From Exiguobacterium artemiae 255-15 (GTDB lineage: Bacteria > Bacillota > Bacilli > Exiguobacteriales > Exiguobacteriaceae), in NCBI RefSeq assembly GCF_000019905.1, contig NC_010556.1, forward strand, positions 1,886,001 to 1,950,000: a stretch of DNA of 64,000 nt, in the 5' to 3' direction. Shown piece by piece: positions 2,356 through 61,860 of the stretch. Numbering within the stretch: the first letter of the stretch is position 1; each line of letters begins with the position of its first letter. The notes under the pieces were generated by a model. That model was not told the origin of the DNA. It made no database searches and saw nothing but the letters and a program-made list of their open reading frames with translations. Both the position numbers and the translations under genes were made by a program.

Positions 2356-2411
2356 GATGAATTCCTCCTTATTGAAAAAAACAGCCACAATGAGGAGTGG
2401 CTGCTTCAAAA

Positions 2412-10649: not shown

Positions 10650-10679
10650 CTGAAAACAGCTCCTTTTCTTTGTTTTCAG
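10650..10679 (-). repeat. Inverted repeat presenting the GNAT ribosome-binding site in its loop
   Basis: CTGAAAAC (10650-10657) and GTTTTCAG (10672-10679) form a perfect 8-bp stem; the 14-nt loop contains the AAAGGAG of the GNAT gene and the stem touches the ATG. Confidence 0.6.
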
Positions 10680-10685
10680 TGTATC

Positions 10686-10730
10686 AAAAAAAAGAACACA
10701 TGACGGACGAATCGAATCTTTTCCGCCATG
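10686..10730 (-). terminator. Intrinsic terminator of the pyr operon
   Basis: A 9-bp stem (arms 10722-10730 and 10699-10707, one G-U pair) is followed on the minus strand by eight T (10693-10686), just after the pyrE stop. Confidence 0.82.
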
Positions 10731-10748
10731 CTCGGGTGAGTTTCCTGA

Positions 10749-20213: not shown

Positions 20214-20313
20214 GCAAAAAAAGCGCACCTTCTGATGTGAAGGTGCGCTGAAGAAGACAGATGTCGCCACCTGTTTCTGAAGGGCCTCCACTTTATCGTT
20301 CTCTCTGGAACGT
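20214..20313 (-). promoter_or_regulatory. PyrR-binding attenuator between pyrP and pyrB
   Basis: The minus strand carries a PyrR binding loop CGTTCCAGAGAGAACG (20312-20297), close to the family consensus ARUCCNGNGAGGYU. It is followed by a strong terminator: AGCGCACCTT and its complement (20249-20222) with a run of T (20221-20216). UMP-bound PyrR should stabilise the hairpin and favour termination before pyrB. This position matches the third attenuator of B. subtilis. Confidence 0.9.
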
Positions 20314-20314
20314 C

Positions 20315-21631
20315 TTAAAAGTCGTTAGCTGCTCGTTTCGGTTGTGGTGTTTCTTGTTCGTGTGCTGCGACTTCGATACTCGTTTTTGGCAAGATCAAAT
20401 TCAGAAGGACCCCTAAGATCGTGGCAAGTGCCATGCCTTCGAGCGAGAAGTTGCCGATTTTGAGGGCAGCTCCACCAATCCCGATGACCAGAATGACCGC
20501 TGTGATGGTCAGGTTCCGTTTATCGGCAAGATCGACCTTACTTTCGACCAGTGTCCGCAGACCGTTCGAAGCGATGACCCCGAACAACAGGATACTGATG
20601 CCGCCCATGACAGGTGTCGGTATCGTCTTGATGAACCCTTCGACATAGCCGAGGAAGCCAAAGCTGATGGCGAGAACCGCTGCGCCTCCGAGGACAAAGA
20701 CACTGTAGACGCGGGTGATGGCCATGACGCCGTTGTTTTCACCGTACGTCGTGACCGGCGGACCGCCGAGGATCGAAGCAATCGTCTTCGCCAATCCATC
20801 TCCGAGAACCGTCCGGTGCATCCCCGGATCAAGAAGCGTCTCGCGCCCGATAATCCGTGATGTCACTTTTTGTTCTCCGATATGCTCTGTTAATGTGACC
20901 AGTGTGACCGGAACGATGAGCGCAAGTGCCGCCCAGTTTAGTGTCGGCGAGTAGTCAAGGAATGGCACCGTAAAGTTCGGCACCTGGAAGAAGCTCGCTT
21001 GTTTCAGTGACGTGAAGTCGACGATCCCGGCAGCGACGGCAACCAGATACCCGGTCAGGATACCGAACAGAATCGGGACGGTACTCCACATTCCTTTGAA
21101 GTACGTCATCGCGAGCAAGGTGACAGCGAGTGTCGTCAAGGCGACGAGCAGGAAGGTACCGTTGTACTTGCCGTCCGCTCCGTTCATCGCCATGTTGACG
21201 GCTGTTGGAGCAAGCGATAATCCGATGACCATGATGACGGGACCGATCACGATCGGAGGCAACAGTTTCATTAACCAGCCAACACCTGTATACGTGATGA
21301 CGAGGGAAACGATGCCGTAGACGAGTCCTGCAACCATTCCGCCGACAAGCGCATCTTCGACACCCCAGCGTTCACTGACGGCAATGATCGGGACGATATA
21401 AGCGAAACTTGAACCTAAGTACGTCGGGACTTTAAAGCGGGTGACGGCGAGGAAGATCAACGTGCCGACTCCGCTTGCGACGAGGGCGACGGATGTGTTT
21501 AATCCCGTTAATAACGGAACAAGGACCGTCGCGCCAAACATCGCGAAGACATGTTGGAGGCTGAGCATCAGCCACTGAAGAGGATGTTTTGGTCGTTCTT
21601 GTACATCGAGAACTGGTCTGTGTGTTTGCAT
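20315..21631 (-). CDS. pyrP: Uracil permease (nucleobase:cation symporter-2 family)
   Basis: PyrP imports uracil across the cytoplasmic membrane. The 438-aa protein has about twelve to fourteen hydrophobic segments (for example LQHVFAMFGATVLVPLLTGL at residues 26-45). It carries the NCS2 signature region GDGLAKTIASILGGPPVTTY near residue 270 and NNGVMAITRV. It lies in the pyr operon between pyrR and pyrB. Its ribosome-binding site GGGAG is directly next to a PyrR RNA hairpin (21650-21665). Confidence 0.95.
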   Translation of the reverse strand: MQTHRPVLDVQERPKHPLQWLMLSLQHVFAMFGATVLVPLLTGLNTSVALVASGVGTLIFLAVTRFKVPTYLGSSFAYIVPIIAVSERWGVEDALVGGMVAGLVYGIVSLVITYTGVGWLMKLLPPIVIGPVIMVIGLSLAPTAVNMAMNGADGKYNGTFLLVALTTLAVTLLAMTYFKGMWSTVPILFGILTGYLVAVAAGIVDFTSLKQASFFQVPNFTVPFLDYSPTLNWAALALIVPVTLVTLTEHIGEQKVTSRIIGRETLLDPGMHRTVLGDGLAKTIASILGGPPVTTYGENNGVMAITRVYSVFVLGGAAVLAISFGFLGYVEGFIKTIPTPVMGGISILLFGVIASNGLRTLVESKVDLADKRNLTITAVILVIGIGGAALKIGNFSLEGMALATILGVLLNLILPKTSIEVAAHEQETPQPKRAANDF

Positions 21632-21682: not shown

Positions 21683-22426
<744 letters not shown>

Positions 22427-23877: not shown

Positions 23878-23925
23878 AATAATGAGGGACCGCTACGAAG
23901 TCGCCGTAGCTGCCCCTCCCTGATT
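23878..23925 (-). terminator. Possible weak terminator between ileS and lspA
   Basis: An imperfect hairpin with GCTACG/CGTAGC at its top and AGGGA/TCCCT below is followed on the minus strand by TTATTTTT, just before the lspA ribosome-binding site. The stem has several mismatches, so partial termination is all I would propose. Confidence 0.45.
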
Positions 23926-26696: not shown

Positions 26697-26960
26697 CAAA
26701 AAAAGCCAAACACATCCCCTGATAGGGACGAGTTGGCTTGAACTCGCGGTACCACCCTACTAGCAACCCTGAAAAACGGATTACCACTTAAGAGCCTGAT
26801 AACGGAGGCGAAACGGTGGAACTTACTGAACAGGTTCAGTTCCACACTCAAAGGGGATACCTTTTATCCTTGACTGATCGGGCTCACACCGGTCCCCGAT
26901 TCGCTGACAGTATTTAGATAAAAGACGTGTCCTTCTCAATGATTTAACTTATACGACATC
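26697..26960 (-). ncRNA. T-box riboswitch (isoleucine-specific) in front of ileS
   Basis: The minus-strand leader contains the T-box core AGGGTGGTACCGCG (26758-26745). It is followed by a terminator hairpin (26738-26704) and a run of T (26704-26698). Upstream, GGTGTGAGCCCG precedes the triplet ATC (26879-26877), at the place of the stem I specifier, which fits isoleucine. Uncharged tRNA-Ile should pair with specifier and T-box and stabilise the antiterminator, raising ileS expression. The 5' end is inferred from the promoter at 26967-26995. Confidence 0.93.
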
Positions 26961-29069: not shown

Positions 29070-29741
29070 TTATGACTGGACTAACGTCGTACCGATTCGG
29101 ACATATGTCGCGCCTTCTTCAATGGCAATCTGATAGTCCGATGACATCCCCATCGACAATTCCGTGCACGGTGCATGCGGGAGTTGACGGGTTGCCACTT
29201 CGTCTCGCAAGACACGAAGTGAACGAAAAACCGAACGGAGTACTTGTTCGTCTTCTGTCAACGGAGCCATCGTCATCAGTCCGATTACACGGACCATCGG
29301 ATATTGTCCTACCTCATGCAAAAATGAGTGGACATCTTCCGGATCAATCCCCTGCTTGGATTCTTCACCAGAAACGTTGACTTGCACAAAACAATCGACT
29401 GGCTGCTTGGCACGTTTATTGATTTCTTCCGCAAGATGCAAGCGGTCCAAGGAATGTAACACGTCAATCCGATCAATGACTTGCCGGACTTTACGGGTCT
29501 GCAGTGTTCCGATAAAATGCCACTCACAGGCCTCACGTCCTAAGACCGTTTGTTTGTCGGTCAATCCTTCCGGACGATTCTCACCCAGTGCCGTTATACC
29601 TGCCGCCAGCAACTCCGCCGCCACTTCACTTGAAACTGATTTCGTCACGCCGATCAATTGTACCTGCTTTTTTTGATCGGTCTTTTCATACGCCTGTTTC
29701 ATGTTTTGTCGGACTTGTTGTACATTTTCAGAAATTGACAT
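29070..29741 (-). CDS. ylmE: YggS-family pyridoxal phosphate-binding protein
   Basis: The 223-aa protein is a one-domain alanine-racemase-fold PLP carrier. LIGVTKSVSSEVAAELLAAG contains the lysine expected to bind PLP (near residue 34), and the C-terminus has MGMSSDYQIAIEEGATYVRI. The family (PLPBP/YggS) keeps vitamin B6 and amino-acid pools balanced. It overlaps pgeF by 14 nt. Confidence 0.93.
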   Translation of the reverse strand: MSISENVQQVRQNMKQAYEKTDQKKQVQLIGVTKSVSSEVAAELLAAGITALGENRPEGLTDKQTVLGREACEWHFIGTLQTRKVRQVIDRIDVLHSLDRLHLAEEINKRAKQPVDCFVQVNVSGEESKQGIDPEDVHSFLHEVGQYPMVRVIGLMTMAPLTEDEQVLRSVFRSLRVLRDEVATRQLPHAPCTELSMGMSSDYQIAIEEGATYVRIGTTLVQS

Positions 29742-30504
29742 CGAGAGACTCCTTTACAATCAAACTGGCAAACCGTCCACCATGATCCCCATGACGATAG
29801 GAGAAGTAGTCTTCCGCCTGGCAGTTCGTACAGATTCCTGTATCCAGCACATCACCGACACCACTGCGTTCGGCTAACATGGCATTGGTTTTTTGAAGTG
29901 ATAACATAGCTTTTCCGTCTTCTTTTTTAGTATAAGGAGACTCTTCCAAGTTCAGTTGGTCAACCGCCTCAAGAACAGGACCATCGACTTCATAACAACA
30001 TTCCCGGATCGAGGGTCCGATCACCATCTGAATCGAAGAACGTTCGGCACCGGCTTGTTCCATCTTTGTCAATGTGGCTTCGACGATGTTGGCAACCGTT
30101 CCGCGCCAGCCGGCGTGAACGTTTGCAATGATACCTGTCCGCGGATCACAGAAAAGGAGCGGCACACAGTCTGCAAACAGCATCATCAATAAGACGTTTG
30201 AATCCGTTGTCACCAGTCCATCTGTACCCTTGATTGCCGTTTCATAATCTGAGGCTCCACGACCGGACTCGAGGGTCGTTACTTGCTCGACATGATTGCC
30301 GTGCACCTGTTCAGCCCATACTGAGTTTTCCAGGGCTAAATCCAGTTGCCGCACGATGACTTCACGATTTTTAATGACACCTTCCGGATCATCTTTTACA
30401 TGCAGTCCTAAGTTGCCTTGACCGTGAGGTGCTGAAAACTTTGTCGTAAACGCTGCACGGACCGTTCCTGTCGGGGTATCCCATTTTATCCATTGACCAA
30501 ACAT
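29728..30504 (-). CDS. pgeF: Multi-copper polyphenol oxidoreductase-fold purine nucleosidase/laccase-domain protein (PgeF)
   Basis: The 258-aa protein has the PgeF/YfiH hallmark GIIANVHAGWRGTVANIVEA near residue 125, with His and Cys ligands also in ADCVPLLFCDPR and GPSIRECCYEVDG. In E. coli the family cleans up a UDP-MurNAc mispairing error (UDP-MurNAc-L-Ser) or acts on adenosine. It is ylmD in B. subtilis. The ATG lies only 18 nt after the ftsZ terminator. Confidence 0.9.
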   Translation of the reverse strand: MFGQWIKWDTPTGTVRAAFTTKFSAPHGQGNLGLHVKDDPEGVIKNREVIVRQLDLALENSVWAEQVHGNHVEQVTTLESGRGASDYETAIKGTDGLVTTDSNVLLMMLFADCVPLLFCDPRTGIIANVHAGWRGTVANIVEATLTKMEQAGAERSSIQMVIGPSIRECCYEVDGPVLEAVDQLNLEESPYTKKEDGKAMLSLQKTNAMLAERSGVGDVLDTGICTNCQAEDYFSYRHGDHGGRFASLIVKESLDVNF

Positions 30505-30522
30505 CTCATCCCATCCTTTTTT

Positions 30523-30555
30523 AAAAAAAGAGGTGTCGCTTACGCGACACCTCTT
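30523..30555 (-). terminator. Intrinsic terminator after ftsZ, abutting pgeF
   Basis: A perfect 12-bp stem AAGAGGTGTCGC/GCGACACCTCTT (30555-30528) with loop GTAA is followed by seven T (30529-30523) on the minus strand. The next gene's ATG is at 30504. Confidence 0.88.
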
Positions 30556-30586
30556 GATCTAGCAGTCGTGTCTCGGGAATATCGAA

Positions 30587-31747
30587 TTAACGATTATTCC
30601 GGCGAAGGAAAGAAGGAATATCCATCGTCTCTTCGACATCTGACCCTTTTGCTGATTCTTGGTTCGAGCTAATAGGTGTCTCTTCGACTTGCGGTTTAGG
30701 TTCTTCAGCTACTGGTGATGGTGTCGACGCCTGCTTTTTCTTGAGCAGGTTTTTCATCATTTCTTGTGCTGACGGGATTTCAAAATCGAGTGGCTCGTTT
30801 TCGAATTCCGTTGCGATGACCGTAACAATGATTTCGTCTTCCAAGTTGTCATTGATGACTGATCCGAAGATTAAGTTGACTTCTTCGTCCGCAGCGCTTT
30901 GAACGATTTGAGCAGCTTCCGTTACTTCGTAAAGGCTTAAGTTCGCACTACCGGTGATATTCATCAAGACGCCTTTTGCACCTTCGATCGATGTTTCAAG
31001 CAATGGACTCGAAATCGCTTTTTTCGCGGCTTCTGTCGCACGGTGTTCACCCGTTGCAACACCGACACCCATCAATGCTGAACCTTTTTCCGTCATGATC
31101 GTTTTAACATCCGCGAAGTCCAAGTTAATGAGACCCGGAACGGCGATTAAGTCCGTAATCCCTTGAACACCTTGACGAAGCACGTTATCGGCTTCTTTAA
31201 AGGCTTCAAGCATCGGCGTGTTACGATCGACGATTTCAAGCAATTTATCATTCGGAATGACGATGAGTGTATCGACTTTTTCTTTAAAGTTCTGCACGCC
31301 TGAAACAGCATGTTGCATCCGTTTGCGGCCTTCGAACATGAAAGGTTTTGTGACGACACCTACTGTCAACGCACCGATTTCTTTAGAAATTTCAGCGATG
31401 ACCGGTGCTGCACCTGTTCCGGTACCGCCACCCATTCCTGCTGTTACGAAAACCATATCGGCACCAGATAGAATTTCTGTCAACTGTTCGCGGCTTTCTT
31501 CGGCAGCTTTCTTACCGATTTCCGGATTTGCTCCGGCACCAAGACCACGTGTCAGTTTTGCTCCCAGTTGAAGTTTTACATCCGCCTGTGACATGTTTAG
31601 AGCTTGTGCATCCGTATTGACAGCGATGAATTCTACGCCTTGGACACCATGTTCAATCATTCGGTTGACAGCGTTTGAACCACCGCCACCTACTCCGATG
31701 ACTTTGATTTTAGCTACTTGGTCCATCATTTCATCAAAATGCAACAT
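30587..31747 (-). CDS. ftsZ: Cell division protein FtsZ
   Basis: FtsZ is the tubulin-like GTPase that forms the Z-ring. The 386-aa protein has [16 protein letters not shown] near residue 17, the tubulin signature [10 protein letters not shown] near residue 105 and [11 protein letters not shown], the T7 catalytic loop. A variable linker (about 320-370) precedes the conserved C-terminal peptide [11 protein letters not shown], which binds FtsA and SepF. The ribosome-binding site is GGGGG within a GGGGCCCC palindrome, 8 nt before the ATG. It follows ftsA. Confidence 0.98.
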
Positions 31748-37619: not shown

Positions 37620-38939
37620 TTAAGTTTCATTTAGAAATGTAAAAATTTGTTCCAGTGCCAGTCCACGCGACGCTTTCAGCAAAATAACGGTTTGCTGGCC
37701 GAGCAAAGGTTGGAGCAGACGTGCTGCCTCTTCGACCGTGTCCGCAAATTGGACTTGGACGGTCGGATCTGCAATTCCATCCGCAATATAACGCCCTTTC
37801 CCCCCTACAAGGATAGCATGGGATACAGGAAGTGCAATCTTCTTCCCGACAGAGGCATGCAACAGACGTTCCTGTTGACCCAGTTCATACATATCCCCGA
37901 GGACAACGACCTTATTCGTAAATCCGTCGAGCGTTGCAATCGTTTCAATCGCCGCATTCATCGATGTCGGACTGGCATTATAGGCATCGTTGATGATTGC
38001 CGTTTGCCCGTACATTAAACGTTCCATCCGCATCGGTGTCAATTGTACGTCATTCAATCCTGCCTGGATGACGTCATCGGTAAGTCCCAGTGCTTTTGCT
38101 GTCGCAATCGCGTATGCTGCATTCCGGACTTGATGTTTACCGAGGACCGGTATGCTGAACGTCGTCCCGTCAAATTTAAACGTCGTTCCGATGAACGTCG
38201 CTTCCGCCTGTTCGATGACGTACGTATTGGTCGCATGATATCCGATCCGTTCAGCCGGCACTTCTCCTAACAACGGCTCGTCGCCATCTACGAAGAGATG
38301 ACCGTTCGGTTTTAATCCTGAGCGAATCTCCAGTTTGGCCTGGGCGATTCCAGTTCGTCCGCCGACTTGCTCGGCATGGGACTCCCCAATGTTCGTCACG
38401 AGTGCAATATCCGGTTCGGCAAGATTCGATAACAGCTCGATATCTCCAAACCCGTTCATTCCCATTTCAAGAACAGCGACTTCCGTCTCGATCGGCATCA
38501 TCAAAATCGTCAATGGCATTCCGATATCTGAATTGAAGTTCCCTGCCGTTTTATGTGTCCGGAACGACTGTTTCAAAACACTCTCAATCATATCTTTTGT
38601 TGAGGTCTTGCCGTTTGATCCTGTAATCGCGATAACTTTCGGGGCCACTTGTTGTAAGTACCGTTTGGCGATGATTTGTAACGCTTGTAACGGATCTTCG
38701 ACTTCAAGCACCGTGATGTCCATCTCCGGAAGCGGAATACCTTTTTTCCACAACGTGGCGATGGCCCCTTGAGCAACTGCTCCCTCGATGAACGTATGTC
38801 CGTCGACACGTGCTCCCTGGATCGGGATATACAATCCTTCTGTCAGAATACTTCTTGAATCTGTCGCAAAATTTCTTAAAGCCCGTGTATCGGTTTCTTC
38901 TAGGCCCAGCCACTGGGCAATCTGTGCAATTGTCACCAT
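37620..38939 (-). CDS. murF: UDP-N-acetylmuramoyl-tripeptide-D-alanyl-D-alanine ligase
   Basis: MurF adds D-Ala-D-Ala to complete the pentapeptide precursor. From the ATG at 38939 (MVTIAQIAQWLGLEETD), with GGAGG 8 nt upstream, it is 439 aa. The ATP loop is ITGSNGKTSTKDM near residue 107. The absence of the DNPR motif expected of MurE and the order MurF-like INDAYNASPTSM support MurF. It fills the place where Bacillus has spoVD and murE. Confidence 0.94.
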   Translation of the reverse strand: MVTIAQIAQWLGLEETDTRALRNFATDSRSILTEGLYIPIQGARVDGHTFIEGAVAQGAIATLWKKGIPLPEMDITVLEVEDPLQALQIIAKRYLQQVAPKVIAITGSNGKTSTKDMIESVLKQSFRTHKTAGNFNSDIGMPLTILMMPIETEVAVLEMGMNGFGDIELLSNLAEPDIALVTNIGESHAEQVGGRTGIAQAKLEIRSGLKPNGHLFVDGDEPLLGEVPAERIGYHATNTYVIEQAEATFIGTTFKFDGTTFSIPVLGKHQVRNAAYAIATAKALGLTDDVIQAGLNDVQLTPMRMERLMYGQTAIINDAYNASPTSMNAAIETIATLDGFTNKVVVLGDMYELGQQERLLHASVGKKIALPVSHAILVGGKGRYIADGIADPTVQVQFADTVEEAARLLQPLLGQQTVILLKASRGLALEQIFTFLNET

Positions 38940-38964
38940 CACTATTTCCTCCACTCGATTACAG

Positions 38965-39014
38965 AAAACGAGGACGAACAGAAGTCAACGAATGACTCCG
39001 GTCCGTCCTCGTTT
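38965..39014 (-). terminator. Possible partial terminator between pbpB and murF
   Basis: A perfect 11-bp stem AAACGAGGACG/CGTCCTCGTTT (39014-39004 with 38976-38966) encloses a 27-nt loop and ends in only four T. It lies 25 nt before the murF ATG and may lower rather than stop transcription. Confidence 0.55.
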
Positions 39015-39043
39015 CACTGCAGAAATCAGGAGACCGCTGTTTC

Positions 39044-41182
39044 TTACTCTTTTGGTTCAGCGAGTTCCACCGTCAGCTTTCCATTTTCTTTCACTAGTGT
39101 ACCAGTTCGCGCCGATTGTTTGGTTACAAAACCTTTACCAATCACGTCTAACTTTAAATCATAGAGACTGACAAGCTTTTTGACATCCCGTTGTGACCAC
39201 CCGGTGATATCAGGCATCTTAAACGTCCGTCCTGTTTTGAAGAGGACACGTTCCCCGCTGACGAATTCCTGTCCGCGGGTCGGAATTTGGGAGACGACTT
39301 CGACCCCGTCACCTAACACGACCGGTACGGCACCTTGCTCTTTCGCCATCTCTTCCGCCTGATTCATACTTTTCCCGATGTAGCTCGGAATGATTTTCGC
39401 TTTGACATCCACCGACTCTTTTTGAGTCGCCGGTTTAATGCTTCGATACTGTAATGCTGTATTCATAACACTTTTGAAGACAGGACTCATGATGCTTGGA
39501 CCGGAAACCGACGATTCATTTTTCGACGGCCGGTCGACCGCGATATACATGATCAATTCCGGATCATCCTTTGGCGCCATTCCGATAAAGGAGTGGATGA
39601 ACTGCCCTTGGATGTATTTCCCGTTCTCGGAAATCTGGGCCGTCCCTGTTTTCCCGATGACACGGTAATCTTTCAGCTTGTACATCTGTCCGGTTCCGAT
39701 TTTACTGTTGACGACACCGTCCAGTGCTTCCCGGGTCGCTTTTGCCGCTTCCGCGGAAATCGGTTTTCCGACTACTTCTGTCTTGGCTTTATACGGCGCT
39801 TTGTCCGTATGGTCCGCTTTTTGGATAATATGCGGTTTGACCATTTCACCGTCTCCGGCAATCGCTGTCGCCCCTTGGAGAATTTGCATCGGCGTTACCG
39901 CCGTCGATTGTCCCCACGATGTAATCAGCGTATTCAGCGGTTTTGACAGATCAGATTGACTGTTTACTTCACCCGAGATATCTATACCCGTTTTTTGATC
40001 GAAATGAAACTTCTTGAAATAGTCTTTATAGCGCTCGATTCCAAGCTTTTCAGCCGTCAGAATCGAGAACATGACATTTGAGGAGTGATAAACCCCTTCA
40101 ATCATCGGAATCGTTCCCCAGCCGACATCATTGTAGTCTTTAATGACGGTCCCCTTGTAATTGTAACTTCCTGATTTATAAGGTTCGTTCGGACGGAAGA
40201 CCCCTGCATCGATGGCAGCAGCCAACGTGAAAATCTTCATCGTCGATCCGGGTTCAAATCGAGACGAGACGGCAAAGTTCGTAAAATCCGTCATATCACG
40301 TAAATTCGGGTTAAATGACGGACGATCCGTCATTGCCAAAATTTCACCTGTTTTGGCGTCCATGACGATTCCGGTCGCATTTTTCGGTTTGTATTCGTTG
40401 TACATCTTCTGCATCTGCTTCTCAAGCGCCTGCTGAATCCGGTGATCAATCGTCAGATACAGATTGGATCCGTCTTTCGGCTCATTTGAGATTTTTGACG
40501 TACCTTGAACCAACTCTCCGCCACTGCGATCTTTTTCAAAGACACGGGAGCCAAACGATTCACGTAAGGCCTCATCGTATTGTTTTTCGATGCCCATCTG
40601 TCCTTTTAAGACAACCCGCCCGTTATCTTCTGTAATTTTTTGGACGAATCCTAGCGTATCCGACAGGAAAATCCCGTTCGGATAATAGCGTTTCGGTTCC
40701 TCGATTAATCGAATTCCGGGCAACTTCAACCGATCGATCTGTTCTTTCTGATCAACCGTCAAGTCATTCCCTTTTTTACCGAATTCGATTTGAGACCGAT
40801 CTTTATTTTCAATCAGATACGTTTCCAGCTCTTTCACCGACATGCCTAAAATCGGCGCCAGTCCGGTCGCTGTTTTCTTGAAATCGACCACTGTCTCGTC
40901 CGGATCCTTCACTCCGCCCAACCGGTAGATTGCCACTAAGTGATAGGACGGGATGTTGATCGCAATCGGTGAACCGAGCCGGTCAAAGATTTCTCCACGT
41001 TCTGCCGATAATGTCGATTGCGACTCCCAACGTTTTTTTTCCGCGTAGACCAACATGTCTTCTCCGTGGAATTTTTTTGTCGTCGATAAGTATAAAAAGC
41101 GTGAAATGAACACCAAAAAGAGAGCAGCAAATATCAACATGACAAAGGCTACTCTCCGTCGGGATTTAGATAATGGATTCAT
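39044..41182 (-). CDS. pbpB: Division-specific penicillin-binding protein 2B (class B transpeptidase with PASTA domains)
   Basis: This is the septal transpeptidase (FtsI type). The 712-aa protein has one N-terminal membrane segment (about 10-30), a dimerisation domain and a transpeptidase domain with catalytic Ser313 (GSTMK), the SSN triad (HSSN at 366-369) and KTG at 511-513 (VIGKTGTAQ). Two C-terminal PASTA domains follow, at about 597-650 and 655-712. It is downstream of ftsL with a 4-nt overlap. Only one such PBP gene is present here; Bacillus has spoVD as well. Confidence 0.95.
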   Translation of the reverse strand: MNPLSKSRRRVAFVMLIFAALFLVFISRFLYLSTTKKFHGEDMLVYAEKKRWESQSTLSAERGEIFDRLGSPIAINIPSYHLVAIYRLGGVKDPDETVVDFKKTATGLAPILGMSVKELETYLIENKDRSQIEFGKKGNDLTVDQKEQIDRLKLPGIRLIEEPKRYYPNGIFLSDTLGFVQKITEDNGRVVLKGQMGIEKQYDEALRESFGSRVFEKDRSGGELVQGTSKISNEPKDGSNLYLTIDHRIQQALEKQMQKMYNEYKPKNATGIVMDAKTGEILAMTDRPSFNPNLRDMTDFTNFAVSSRFEPGSTMKIFTLAAAIDAGVFRPNEPYKSGSYNYKGTVIKDYNDVGWGTIPMIEGVYHSSNVMFSILTAEKLGIERYKDYFKKFHFDQKTGIDISGEVNSQSDLSKPLNTLITSWGQSTAVTPMQILQGATAIAGDGEMVKPHIIQKADHTDKAPYKAKTEVVGKPISAEAAKATREALDGVVNSKIGTGQMYKLKDYRVIGKTGTAQISENGKYIQGQFIHSFIGMAPKDDPELIMYIAVDRPSKNESSVSGPSIMSPVFKSVMNTALQYRSIKPATQKESVDVKAKIIPSYIGKSMNQAEEMAKEQGAVPVVLGDGVEVVSQIPTRGQEFVSGERVLFKTGRTFKMPDITGWSQRDVKKLVSLYDLKLDVIGKGFVTKQSARTGTLVKENGKLTVELAEPKE

Positions 41183-45460: not shown

Positions 45461-45508
45461 AAAAAAAGCGACCTGTCAAACCGATTGCTCGATTCTAGGG
45501 TCGCTTTT
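45461..45508 (-). terminator. Intrinsic terminator after rpmF
   Basis: AAAAGCGACC/GGTCGCTTTT (45508-45499 with 45473-45464) forms a 10-bp stem with a long loop and a run of seven T (45467-45461). The panE ATG is 23 nt beyond it. Confidence 0.85.
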
Positions 45509-45524
45509 ATACCGATCATTCAGC

Positions 45525-45698
45525 TTACTTGCTGACGATTTCTTTACCTTTGTACGAGCCACATGCTTTACAAACGCGGTGTGAAAGTTTCATTTCACCA
45601 CAGTTTGGGCACTCGACCATACCTGGTACACGGAGTTTGAAATGAGTACGGCGAAGACGTTTGCGTGTTTTCGACGTTCTGCGGAATGGTACTGCCAT
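45525..45698 (-). CDS. rpmF: 50S ribosomal protein L32
   Basis: This 57-aa protein begins [20 protein letters not shown], the signature of L32. Four cysteines (30, 33, 43, 46; CPNC and CKAC) form a zinc ribbon, so this is the zinc-containing C+ form. GGAGGT lies upstream of the ATG at 45698. It follows yceD with a 47-nt gap, the usual order. Confidence 0.97.
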
Positions 45699-49621: not shown

Positions 49622-49654
49622 AAAAAAGAGCGACGAGGATGACCTCATCGCTCT
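49622..49654 (-). terminator. Intrinsic terminator between ylbG and rsmD
   Basis: AGAGCGATGAGG/CCTCGTCGCTCT (49654-49643 with 49638-49627), one mismatch, has a TCAT loop and a run of six T (49627-49622) on the minus strand. The rsmD ATG is 16 nt further. Confidence 0.85.
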
Positions 49655-60438: not shown

Positions 60439-61794
60439 TTATTTAAAACGGGCAATCGCTCGTTTCCGGGCCATATCGTGCTCGACAATCGGCATCGGAT
60501 AATCGTAGTCTTTTCGTTGTTGTTCCGTCGGTTCATGAATCGATGTTTTCGGCAAATCCTTCAGTTCCGGCAAATAGGTACGGATGAACGTTCCATCCTT
60601 ATCGAATTTCTTCGACTGGGTCGTCGGATTGAAGACACGGAAATACGGCACAGCGTCCGTACCGACGGATGCCGCCCACTGCCACCCGCCGATATTCGAC
60701 GCTGCTTCATAGTCCACCAGTTTCTGTTGGAAGTAGCGTTCTCCTTTTTGCCAGTCGACTAATAAATCCTTCGTCAAAAAAGATGCGACAATCATTCGCA
60801 GGCGGTTATGCATCCATCCAGTCGTATTGAGCTGACGCATCGCTGCATCGACGATCGGGTACCCGGTTTTCCCTTCTGCCCAGGCTTTGAATCCCTTCTC
60901 ATCCGTTTCCCACTCAATCTTCGTATACTGTTCATTAACCGGCAGTCGTTTGGATTCCGGATAATGCATGAGAATCGTGTAGTAAAATTCCCGCCAGATC
61001 AATTCCGTCAGATAGGTCTGTTTTCCTTTTGAATCCTGTTCCTGCTGGACCGCATCAAAAATCGTCCGAATTCCGATTTCACCAGTCCGAAGATATCGGG
61101 ACATCAGGCTTGTTCCGTCGACGGCCGGCAGATCCCGTTGCTCCTCATAAGCAGATAAATTATTTTTAAGGAATGATCGTAAACGTTTTCGAGCCGTTTC
61201 TTCCCCGACCGCGAAGTCGGTGTCTGATGCCGCCCGCTTAAAATAATCCAGCATAAAGGCATTGTTCTGCCGCCGTTTGTGATAACGTTCCTTTAAAAGA
61301 TTCAGCTTGACCGGATACGGTTTATCGACATCTTTCTTCAAAAAAGCATTTTTATACGGTGTAAATACCTTGTAATAGGATCCGTCATTTTTTTTGACGG
61401 CATGCGGATGAAGCAGATGGCGGTCAAGCAACCGCTCCGTCTTTTTATCGCCCCGTTTTTTCATGATGCCGTCGTCACGGCTCTTGAACGGTTCGACGTA
61501 CTCGGCGTTAAACAACAGAACATCCGCCATTTCCGTTGCTTCGAGAAAATCCTTTTCCTGTCCTTCAATGAAACGGATCGGCATATCATGGGTCTTGCAG
61601 TTTTTTGCGAAATGTTCGAGTGCCTGGAAAAAATACTGTTGCCTCGCGTCATACTCTCCGATGTAGTCCGGGTTCACCCAGAAAACGAACTCGACATTTG
61701 CCTGTTCGTCCTTTTCGAGATACTCGACCGCTCGTGCCAGCATATGATTGTCCTCGAGCCGAAAATCACTTCGAATCCAACAGATGATATTCAT
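60439..61794 (-). CDS. phrB: Deoxyribodipyrimidine photolyase (cryptochrome/photolyase family)
   Basis: The enzyme repairs cyclobutane pyrimidine dimers with blue light, FAD and an antenna cofactor. From the ATG at 61794 (MNIICWIRSDFRLEDNHMLA), with GGAGG 7 nt upstream, it is 451 aa. FAD-binding regions include RTGEIGIRTIFDAVQ, LTELIWREFYYTILMHYP and the GYPIVDAAMRQLNTTGWMHN motif near residue 330. ASNIGGWQWAASVGTDAVPY follows. It stands behind pycA and its terminator, on the same strand. A cryptochrome is less likely but cannot be ruled out by eye. Confidence 0.93.
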   Translation of the reverse strand: MNIICWIRSDFRLEDNHMLARAVEYLEKDEQANVEFVFWVNPDYIGEYDARQQYFFQALEHFAKNCKTHDMPIRFIEGQEKDFLEATEMADVLLFNAEYVEPFKSRDDGIMKKRGDKKTERLLDRHLLHPHAVKKNDGSYYKVFTPYKNAFLKKDVDKPYPVKLNLLKERYHKRRQNNAFMLDYFKRAASDTDFAVGEETARKRLRSFLKNNLSAYEEQRDLPAVDGTSLMSRYLRTGEIGIRTIFDAVQQEQDSKGKQTYLTELIWREFYYTILMHYPESKRLPVNEQYTKIEWETDEKGFKAWAEGKTGYPIVDAAMRQLNTTGWMHNRLRMIVASFLTKDLLVDWQKGERYFQQKLVDYEAASNIGGWQWAASVGTDAVPYFRVFNPTTQSKKFDKDGTFIRTYLPELKDLPKTSIHEPTEQQRKDYDYPMPIVEHDMARKRAIARFK

Positions 61795-61824: not shown

Positions 61825-61860
61825 AAAAACAGGCAATCCGCCATGCGTTTTGCCTGTTTT
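61825..61860 (-). terminator. Intrinsic terminator after pycA
   Basis: AAAACAGGCAA/TTGCCTGTTTT (61860-61850 with 61836-61826) forms an 11-bp stem with a T-run (61829-61825) on the minus strand. The photolyase ATG is 30 nt further. Confidence 0.88.

Follow-up and report, generated by a model that had tools for sequence, protein, structure and literature searches.

Closely spaced intrinsic terminators between co-directional genes of Exiguobacterium artemiae as probable read-through steps inside operons

The window analysed here is a stretch of 64,000 nucleotides from Exiguobacterium artemiae 255-15 (contig NC_010556.1, positions 1,886,001 to 1,950,000). Its features are collected in Table 1. 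The original prediction described six junctions between co-directional genes at which a strong hairpin and a U-run are followed at once by the ribosome-binding site of the next gene. The junctions were re-read in the sequence, and all six hairpins and all six distances from the U-run to the ATG were exact (ftsZ/pgeF 18 nt, ylbG/rsmD 16 nt, rpmF/panE 23 nt, pbpB/murF 25 nt, pycA/phrB 30 nt, and pyrE/GNAT 36 nt). The folding energies of the window hairpins were between –15 and –32 kcal/mol, with z values of –3.0 to –7.3 against dinucleotide shuffles. Six had been given as a minimum, and the window indeed holds also rpoZ/coaBC, ileS/lspA, and the terminators before pyrR and pyrB. Gene names in the window were checked by NCBIfam and Pfam family searches. 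The searches confirmed rsmD and murF, found photolyase domains in phrB and a PanE match in panE, and gave a phosphoribosyltransferase match at the pyrE position and a GNAT-domain match in the gene after it. The ylbG match scores below the cut-off of its model, and pbpB is a class B PBP by family matches of which none is above a curated cut-off. For pycA, which extends beyond the window, the name is that of the original prediction.

Table 1. Terminator hairpins and selected genes in the window (positions counted from its first letter)
Feature	Position	Strand	Remarks
Terminator hairpin ftsZ/pgeF	30528..30555	–	U-run 30527-30523, then SD, ATG at 30504
ftsZ, upstream gene	30587..31747	–	TIGR00065
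pgeF, downstream gene	29728..30504	–	TIGR00726
Terminator hairpin ylbG/rsmD	49627..49654	–	stop codon 5 nt before, ATG 21 nt after
Terminator hairpin rpmF/panE	45465..45507	–	panE ATG 27 nt on
rpmF (ribosomal protein L32)	45525..45698	–	translated ORF, 57 aa
Strong hairpin pbpB/murF, weak U-tract, doubtful terminator	38969..39011	–	folding
Terminator hairpin pycA/phrB	61829..61857	–	phrB ATG at 61794
Terminator after pyrE, end of pyr operon	10698..10731	–	48 nt before ATG of GNAT-domain gene
Tight terminator rpoZ/coaBC	2379..2406	–	5 nt past stop, 23 nt to ATG
Tight terminator ileS/lspA	23884..23918	–	9 nt past stop, 28 nt to ATG
Predicted PyrR attenuator terminator before pyrR	22237..22264	–	Rfam RF00515 at 22229-22361, 51.7 bits
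Predicted PyrR attenuator terminator pyrP/pyrB	20222..20249	–	RF00515 at 20215-20326, 45.7 bits
T-box leader terminator of ileS	26703..26739	–	Rfam RF00230 at 26721-26948, 104.7 bits

As examples of the pattern, two of the six junctions are poor, pyrE/GNAT for the distance of its hairpin from the ATG (48 nt) and pbpB/murF for its U-tract. The latter reads TTTGCTG or TTTTGCTG in most relatives, and the stem is conserved. Across the genus, the pbpB/murF stem with its GGAGTCATTCGTTGACTT apex (38939-39044, minus strand) hardly varies, unlike the U-tract. As a terminator, the element is doubtful and is not callable with confidence. The stem may be an RNA element of another kind. At the same place, murF lies directly 3' of pbpB with no murE between them (37620-41182, minus strand), an order that differs from the dcw cluster of E. 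coli.

The search was extended from the window to the genome. A first sample was composed of the window and 40 evenly spaced 20-kb stretches, together 864 kb of the 3.04-Mb genome, and 20 further stretches brought it to 1.26 Mb (1.264 Mb) with 798 co-directional gene pairs. Genes and terminators were located with a purpose-written gene caller and terminator scanner. The gene starts are those of this caller, which in the window missed one small gene (rpmF) and misplaced one start (phrB). Stable hairpins with U-tracts are present between co-directional genes. In the 864-kb sample, 189 sense terminators were found in such positions, against 2–6 in dinucleotide-shuffled gaps, and 26 were located 20–30 nt before the start codon, against 0–1 in the shuffled gaps. 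Therefore, the tight-terminator pattern is not a product of chance. A whole-genome scan for the same spacing had been proposed, and the pattern recurs across the 1.26-Mb sample. Start-codon distances, measured from the end of the hairpin, peaked at 20–30 nt, passed through a trough at 45–70 nt, and peaked again at about 80–100 nt. When the terminators that closely follow the upstream stop codon were counted in the 1.26-Mb sample, successive 5-nt bins between 20 and 60 nt contained 15, 7, 5, 3, 9, 3, 3, and 3, and the count rose to about 10 at 80–90 nt. Within 20–70 nt, 22 of 55 terminators fell at 20–30 nt where one fifth was expected (p = 5e-4), the bin having been picked after the histogram. 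The terminators fall into two classes: in the first, the spacing is the smallest that a U-run and an SD permit, and the second leaves room for a promoter. A tight junction was defined by a hairpin 15–40 nt from the ATG and at most 40 nt from the stop codon. These limits were chosen once the histogram had been seen, yet ahead of the codon test described below. The tight class has 28 junctions in the 1.26-Mb sample, and about 65 are estimated for the genome by scaling from 27 in 1.264 Mb. The tight hairpins equal the spaced ones in stability and their U-tracts are about equally good. When a weaker U-tract or hairpin was looked for as a mark of leakiness, no difference was seen between tight and spaced terminators. 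Therefore, the tight class carries no such sequence sign of leakiness.

Codon usage was taken as the proxy for expression, as CAI with the ribosomal protein cluster of Exiguobacterium as the reference set. In the window, CAI falls from 0.64 to 0.50 at ftsZ/pgeF, from 0.71 to 0.38 at rpmF/panE, from 0.68 to 0.45 at rpoZ/coaBC, from 0.60 to 0.46 at ileS/lspA, and from 0.53 (partial gene) to 0.44 at pycA/phrB. The step from pyrE to the GNAT-domain gene is small (0.42 to 0.40), and there is none at pbpB/murF (0.46 to 0.46). The terminator of ylbG/rsmD is perfect, yet its CAI is flat (0.40 to 0.40). Over the tight class, CAI was 0.545 for the upstream and 0.447 for the downstream genes, with a drop in 26 of 28 pairs (p = 6.6e-7). 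In the 20–30 nt slice, which was examined only following the codon test, the drop was found in 23 of 23 pairs. The operon pairs free of a terminator (n = 369) had a CAI difference of 0.002 and a drop in 50%. Spaced terminators also had a drop, of 0.036, so part of the codon step is common to terminators in general. Across gaps longer than 80 nt with no terminator, CAI rises by 0.054, as is expected where a promoter is present. After matching on upstream CAI, the downstream genes of tight junctions were 0.061 under the operon controls (p = 2e-8) and 0.049 under the genes behind spaced terminators (p = 3e-7). Because the gap persists after matching, regression to the mean is not the cause of the step. 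Within the tight class, the trend of the CAI step with hairpin energy was opposite to that of a simple dose model and not significant (rho 0.36, p = 0.06), and no correlation of step size with U-score was found in the expected direction. The original prediction had proposed that such junctions set expression ratios, by which the upstream gene should exceed the downstream one. CAI agrees with this, and the result is repeated in a sister genus, where five of six tight pairs drop (200-kb sample, scored with the Exiguobacterium codon table). Judged by this proxy, the upstream gene is predicted to be expressed above the downstream gene for the class. The tight pairs include solute-binding protein/permease, pyruvate kinase/DUF441, SdhB-type iron-sulfur protein/thioesterase, ClpX/Lon, MetG-type synthetase/TatD, YabA/methyltransferase, and class II synthetase with a GAD domain/DNA glycosylase. 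By function, it is plausible that such pairs are abundant-to-scarce neighbours.

The tight junctions are probably intrinsic terminators inside operons, acting as read-through steps that set gene-to-gene ratios. This reading is built on the hairpins, the two-peaked spacing, the absent promoter signal, the codon-usage step and the conservation, all of them features of the DNA sequence. From them we infer termination in the cell, read-through as the source of the downstream mRNA and the size of the step. The polymerase would leave a highly expressed upstream gene and, within a few nucleotides of its stop codon, run into a strong hairpin with a U-run. Most polymerases would halt there, and the fraction reading through would make the only mRNA of the downstream gene, whose SD starts right after the U-run. 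The junction would act as a fixed step-down, and the ratio of the two neighbours would be set without a second promoter. Since the upstream codon usage is nearly always the stronger, the signal is probably a leaky stop. In E. coli, the ribosome represses terminators that lie this near to a stop codon (PMC4824070), yet such terminators are common in B. subtilis and Listeria. Transcription-translation coupling is infrequent or absent in B. subtilis (PMC12207403), which Exiguobacterium presumably resembles in coupling.

The FtsZ protein is 94–100% identical to that of 18 other Exiguobacterium genomes, and the closest hit with a name belongs to Exiguobacterium indicum, which places the host in Exiguobacterium. 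The ftsZ/pgeF hairpin is kept in 18 of 18 aligned genomes of the genus and the ylbG/rsmD hairpin in 19. Per-column identity in the stem and loop of these two was 0.93–0.94 and dropped to 0.74 and 0.62, respectively, outside them, and a single pair cell was broken over both alignments. At ileS/lspA and rpmF/panE, two stem pairs each are altered on both sides among 18–19 genomes. The downstream distance at ftsZ/pgeF holds at 22–29 nt across the genus. The pgeF junction of one genome (G016) was considered as a natural deletion of the terminator and was rejected, as the terminator is intact with an insertion element behind it. This is an IS30-type element (HTH_38 and rve domains, L078:10988-12035), inserted immediately after the U-run of the terminator. 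It has an AAAA run at each edge, the ftsZ-pgeF gap is 1143 nt, and the hairpin is undamaged. In E. artemiae, the ftsZ 3' UTR before the terminator (30556-30586, minus strand) contains a conserved GACACGACTGCTA, in which GACAC might base-pair with the GTGTC in the stem of the terminator. An antiterminator of this kind was considered and set aside, since five pairs are too few.

A conserved hairpin and a codon step are equally predicted if the hairpin is a protective 3' end or exonuclease barrier, left by cleavage of a read-through transcript, so that the upstream mRNA outlives the downstream mRNA. The sequence alone does not separate read-through from processing at the hairpin. Such processing also agrees with pbpB/murF, where the stem stays very strong while the U-tract decays. 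However, nearly all other tight junctions have a good U-tract, scored like those of spaced terminators, and a protective stem needs none. Selective RNA processing and stabilisation operons are reported from Clostridium (PMC8219983, PMC4423207). These operons resemble the tight class in the stem-loop behind a highly expressed gene and in the unequal abundance within one operon, but they work by cleavage and a U-tract is no defining part there. We consider processing a rather unlikely account of the class.

It had also been claimed that no promoter fits in the gaps, so that the downstream genes would need read-through, processing at the hairpin or an overlapping promoter. Consensus-based sigma-A promoter scores were computed over 125 nt 5' of the downstream gene. 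The median best scores were 3.6 for tight, 2.8 for operon-internal, 5.1 for spaced, and 5.1 for divergent genes. With the –10 restricted to positions overlapping the terminator or the gap, the medians were 1.1 for tight, 1.0 for operon-internal, and 2.7 for spaced. The claim is supported, as the tight scores equal those of operon-internal genes and are far under those of the spaced class, overlapping promoters included. By these consensus-based scores alone, the downstream gene of a tight junction appears to be without its own promoter. The terminator could otherwise end the transcription unit fully, the next gene being driven by a promoter that overlaps with the hairpin and is weak or not of the sigma-A type. 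A promoter-like site at ileS/lspA (score 7.8, –10 at –77, upstream of the hairpin end) points in this direction, and weak sites overlap with the terminator at a few other junctions. Transcription that starts farther upstream, however, must itself get past the hairpin, and a hidden promoter would force neither the 20–30 nt spacing nor a consistently weaker downstream gene. With overlapping sites scoring the same as in operon-internal genes, full insulation is quite improbable.

The read-through reading was followed outside the genus. The ftsZ/pgeF hairpin of a sister genus (G031) shares no sequence relationship with that of Exiguobacterium, and the layout is the same: stop, hairpin, U-run, SD, and an ATG 21 nt on. 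The gene behind ftsZ was taken there as pgeF from its position, length and start sequence. A terminator lies behind ftsZ in most of 80 named Bacilli loci, and no pgeF match was found beside it in these loci outside Exiguobacterium. Tight junctions made up 30 of 639 co-directional pairs in two Exiguobacteriaceae samples, as opposed to 4 of 323 pairs from three other Bacilli, an enrichment of about fourfold over the other Bacilli sampled (Fisher p = 0.005). With a 35-nt limit, E. coli K-12 had 2 tight junctions in 150, one of them secA/mutT. Each of the comparison samples is small, at 200–285 kb. A wider proposal would make the compact cassette of stop codon, terminator, SD, and start codon a widespread intra-operon step-down in Exiguobacteriaceae, with about 65 sites per genome, a selected spacing and hairpins that turn over. 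We regard it as possible but tentative. The ftsZ terminator of the Bacilli loci may also be an old operon end which pgeF came against. Deletion bias would then have drawn operon-end terminators towards the genes that follow them, the spacing would have no function, and intergenic distances are indeed short throughout the genome. Compaction, however, predicts neither the 45–70 nt trough nor the consistent codon step, and downstream genes, some of them probably essential (murF, coaBC), would go untranscribed. As the sole explanation, it is very unlikely.

The terminators before pyrR and pyrB are predicted to be PyrR attenuators from their positions and from RF00515 matches that are both under the gathering score of 54. 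When the window was searched against Rfam at gathering scores, the T-box before ileS was the sole match. The predicted PyrR and the T-box terminators lie 20–40 nt before the start codon as in the tight class, and they would have this spacing because each is a regulated attenuator with a long leader. It is hardly credible that the tight class as a whole responds to a ligand or protein in this way: the sensor leader of such systems is about 60–260 nt, the main class has its stop codon about 0–30 nt before the hairpin and so no room for one, and the search at gathering scores gave the T-box alone.

Using Rend-seq on B. subtilis and E. coli, Lalanne et al. (2018) reportedly found internal, stoichiometry-setting terminators. 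In clostridial ABC importers, ratio-setting internal terminators lie behind the solute-binding protein gene (PMC9045158). In the archaeon M. maripaludis, 38% of the operons have internal termination sites, and upstream genes are expressed above the downstream ones (PMC10450193). The tight junctions are similar to such systems in having a termination site between co-directional genes and an upstream gene that is predicted to be expressed above the downstream one, and one tight Exiguobacterium pair is, like the clostridial case, solute-binding protein/permease. The Exiguobacterium gap is often just 50–80 nt with the hairpin against the SD, whereas the clostridial gaps exceed 90 bp in three named clusters, and a lower U content is reported for the clostridial internal terminators (PMC9045158) while the difference is not significant in Exiguobacterium. 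No paper describing the compact form as a class was found in the open-licence literature, and a literature search gave no transcript-end maps of Exiguobacterium among the papers that it listed. Internal ratio-setting terminators are already known, and what is unusual here is the compactness and the enrichment in one family. The new element is a genome-scale signature read from DNA, namely two-peaked spacing, absent promoter, codon step and one-family enrichment. If the read-through is real, intra-operon ratios would be partly readable from a genome sequence, and hairpin spacing would tell leaky steps from unit ends. One genome would then offer about 65 matched natural terminators for the study of termination efficiency without confusion by promoters, and programs that predict operons would be warned against splitting them wherever a terminator occurs.

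Two further hairpins were observed near start codons. A 9-bp hairpin (CTGAAAAC...GTTTTCAG, 10650-10679, minus strand, –8.5 kcal/mol) adjoins the start codon of the GNAT-domain gene behind pyrE and carries the SD of that gene in its loop, and a translational control element is possible there. In another stretch (L019:7044-7122, minus strand), a hairpin and U-run precede the ATG of a lysine/ornithine monooxygenase-type gene by 8 nt, with no SD between. This gene lies behind a trypsin-like protease gene, and its start codon may be misplaced.
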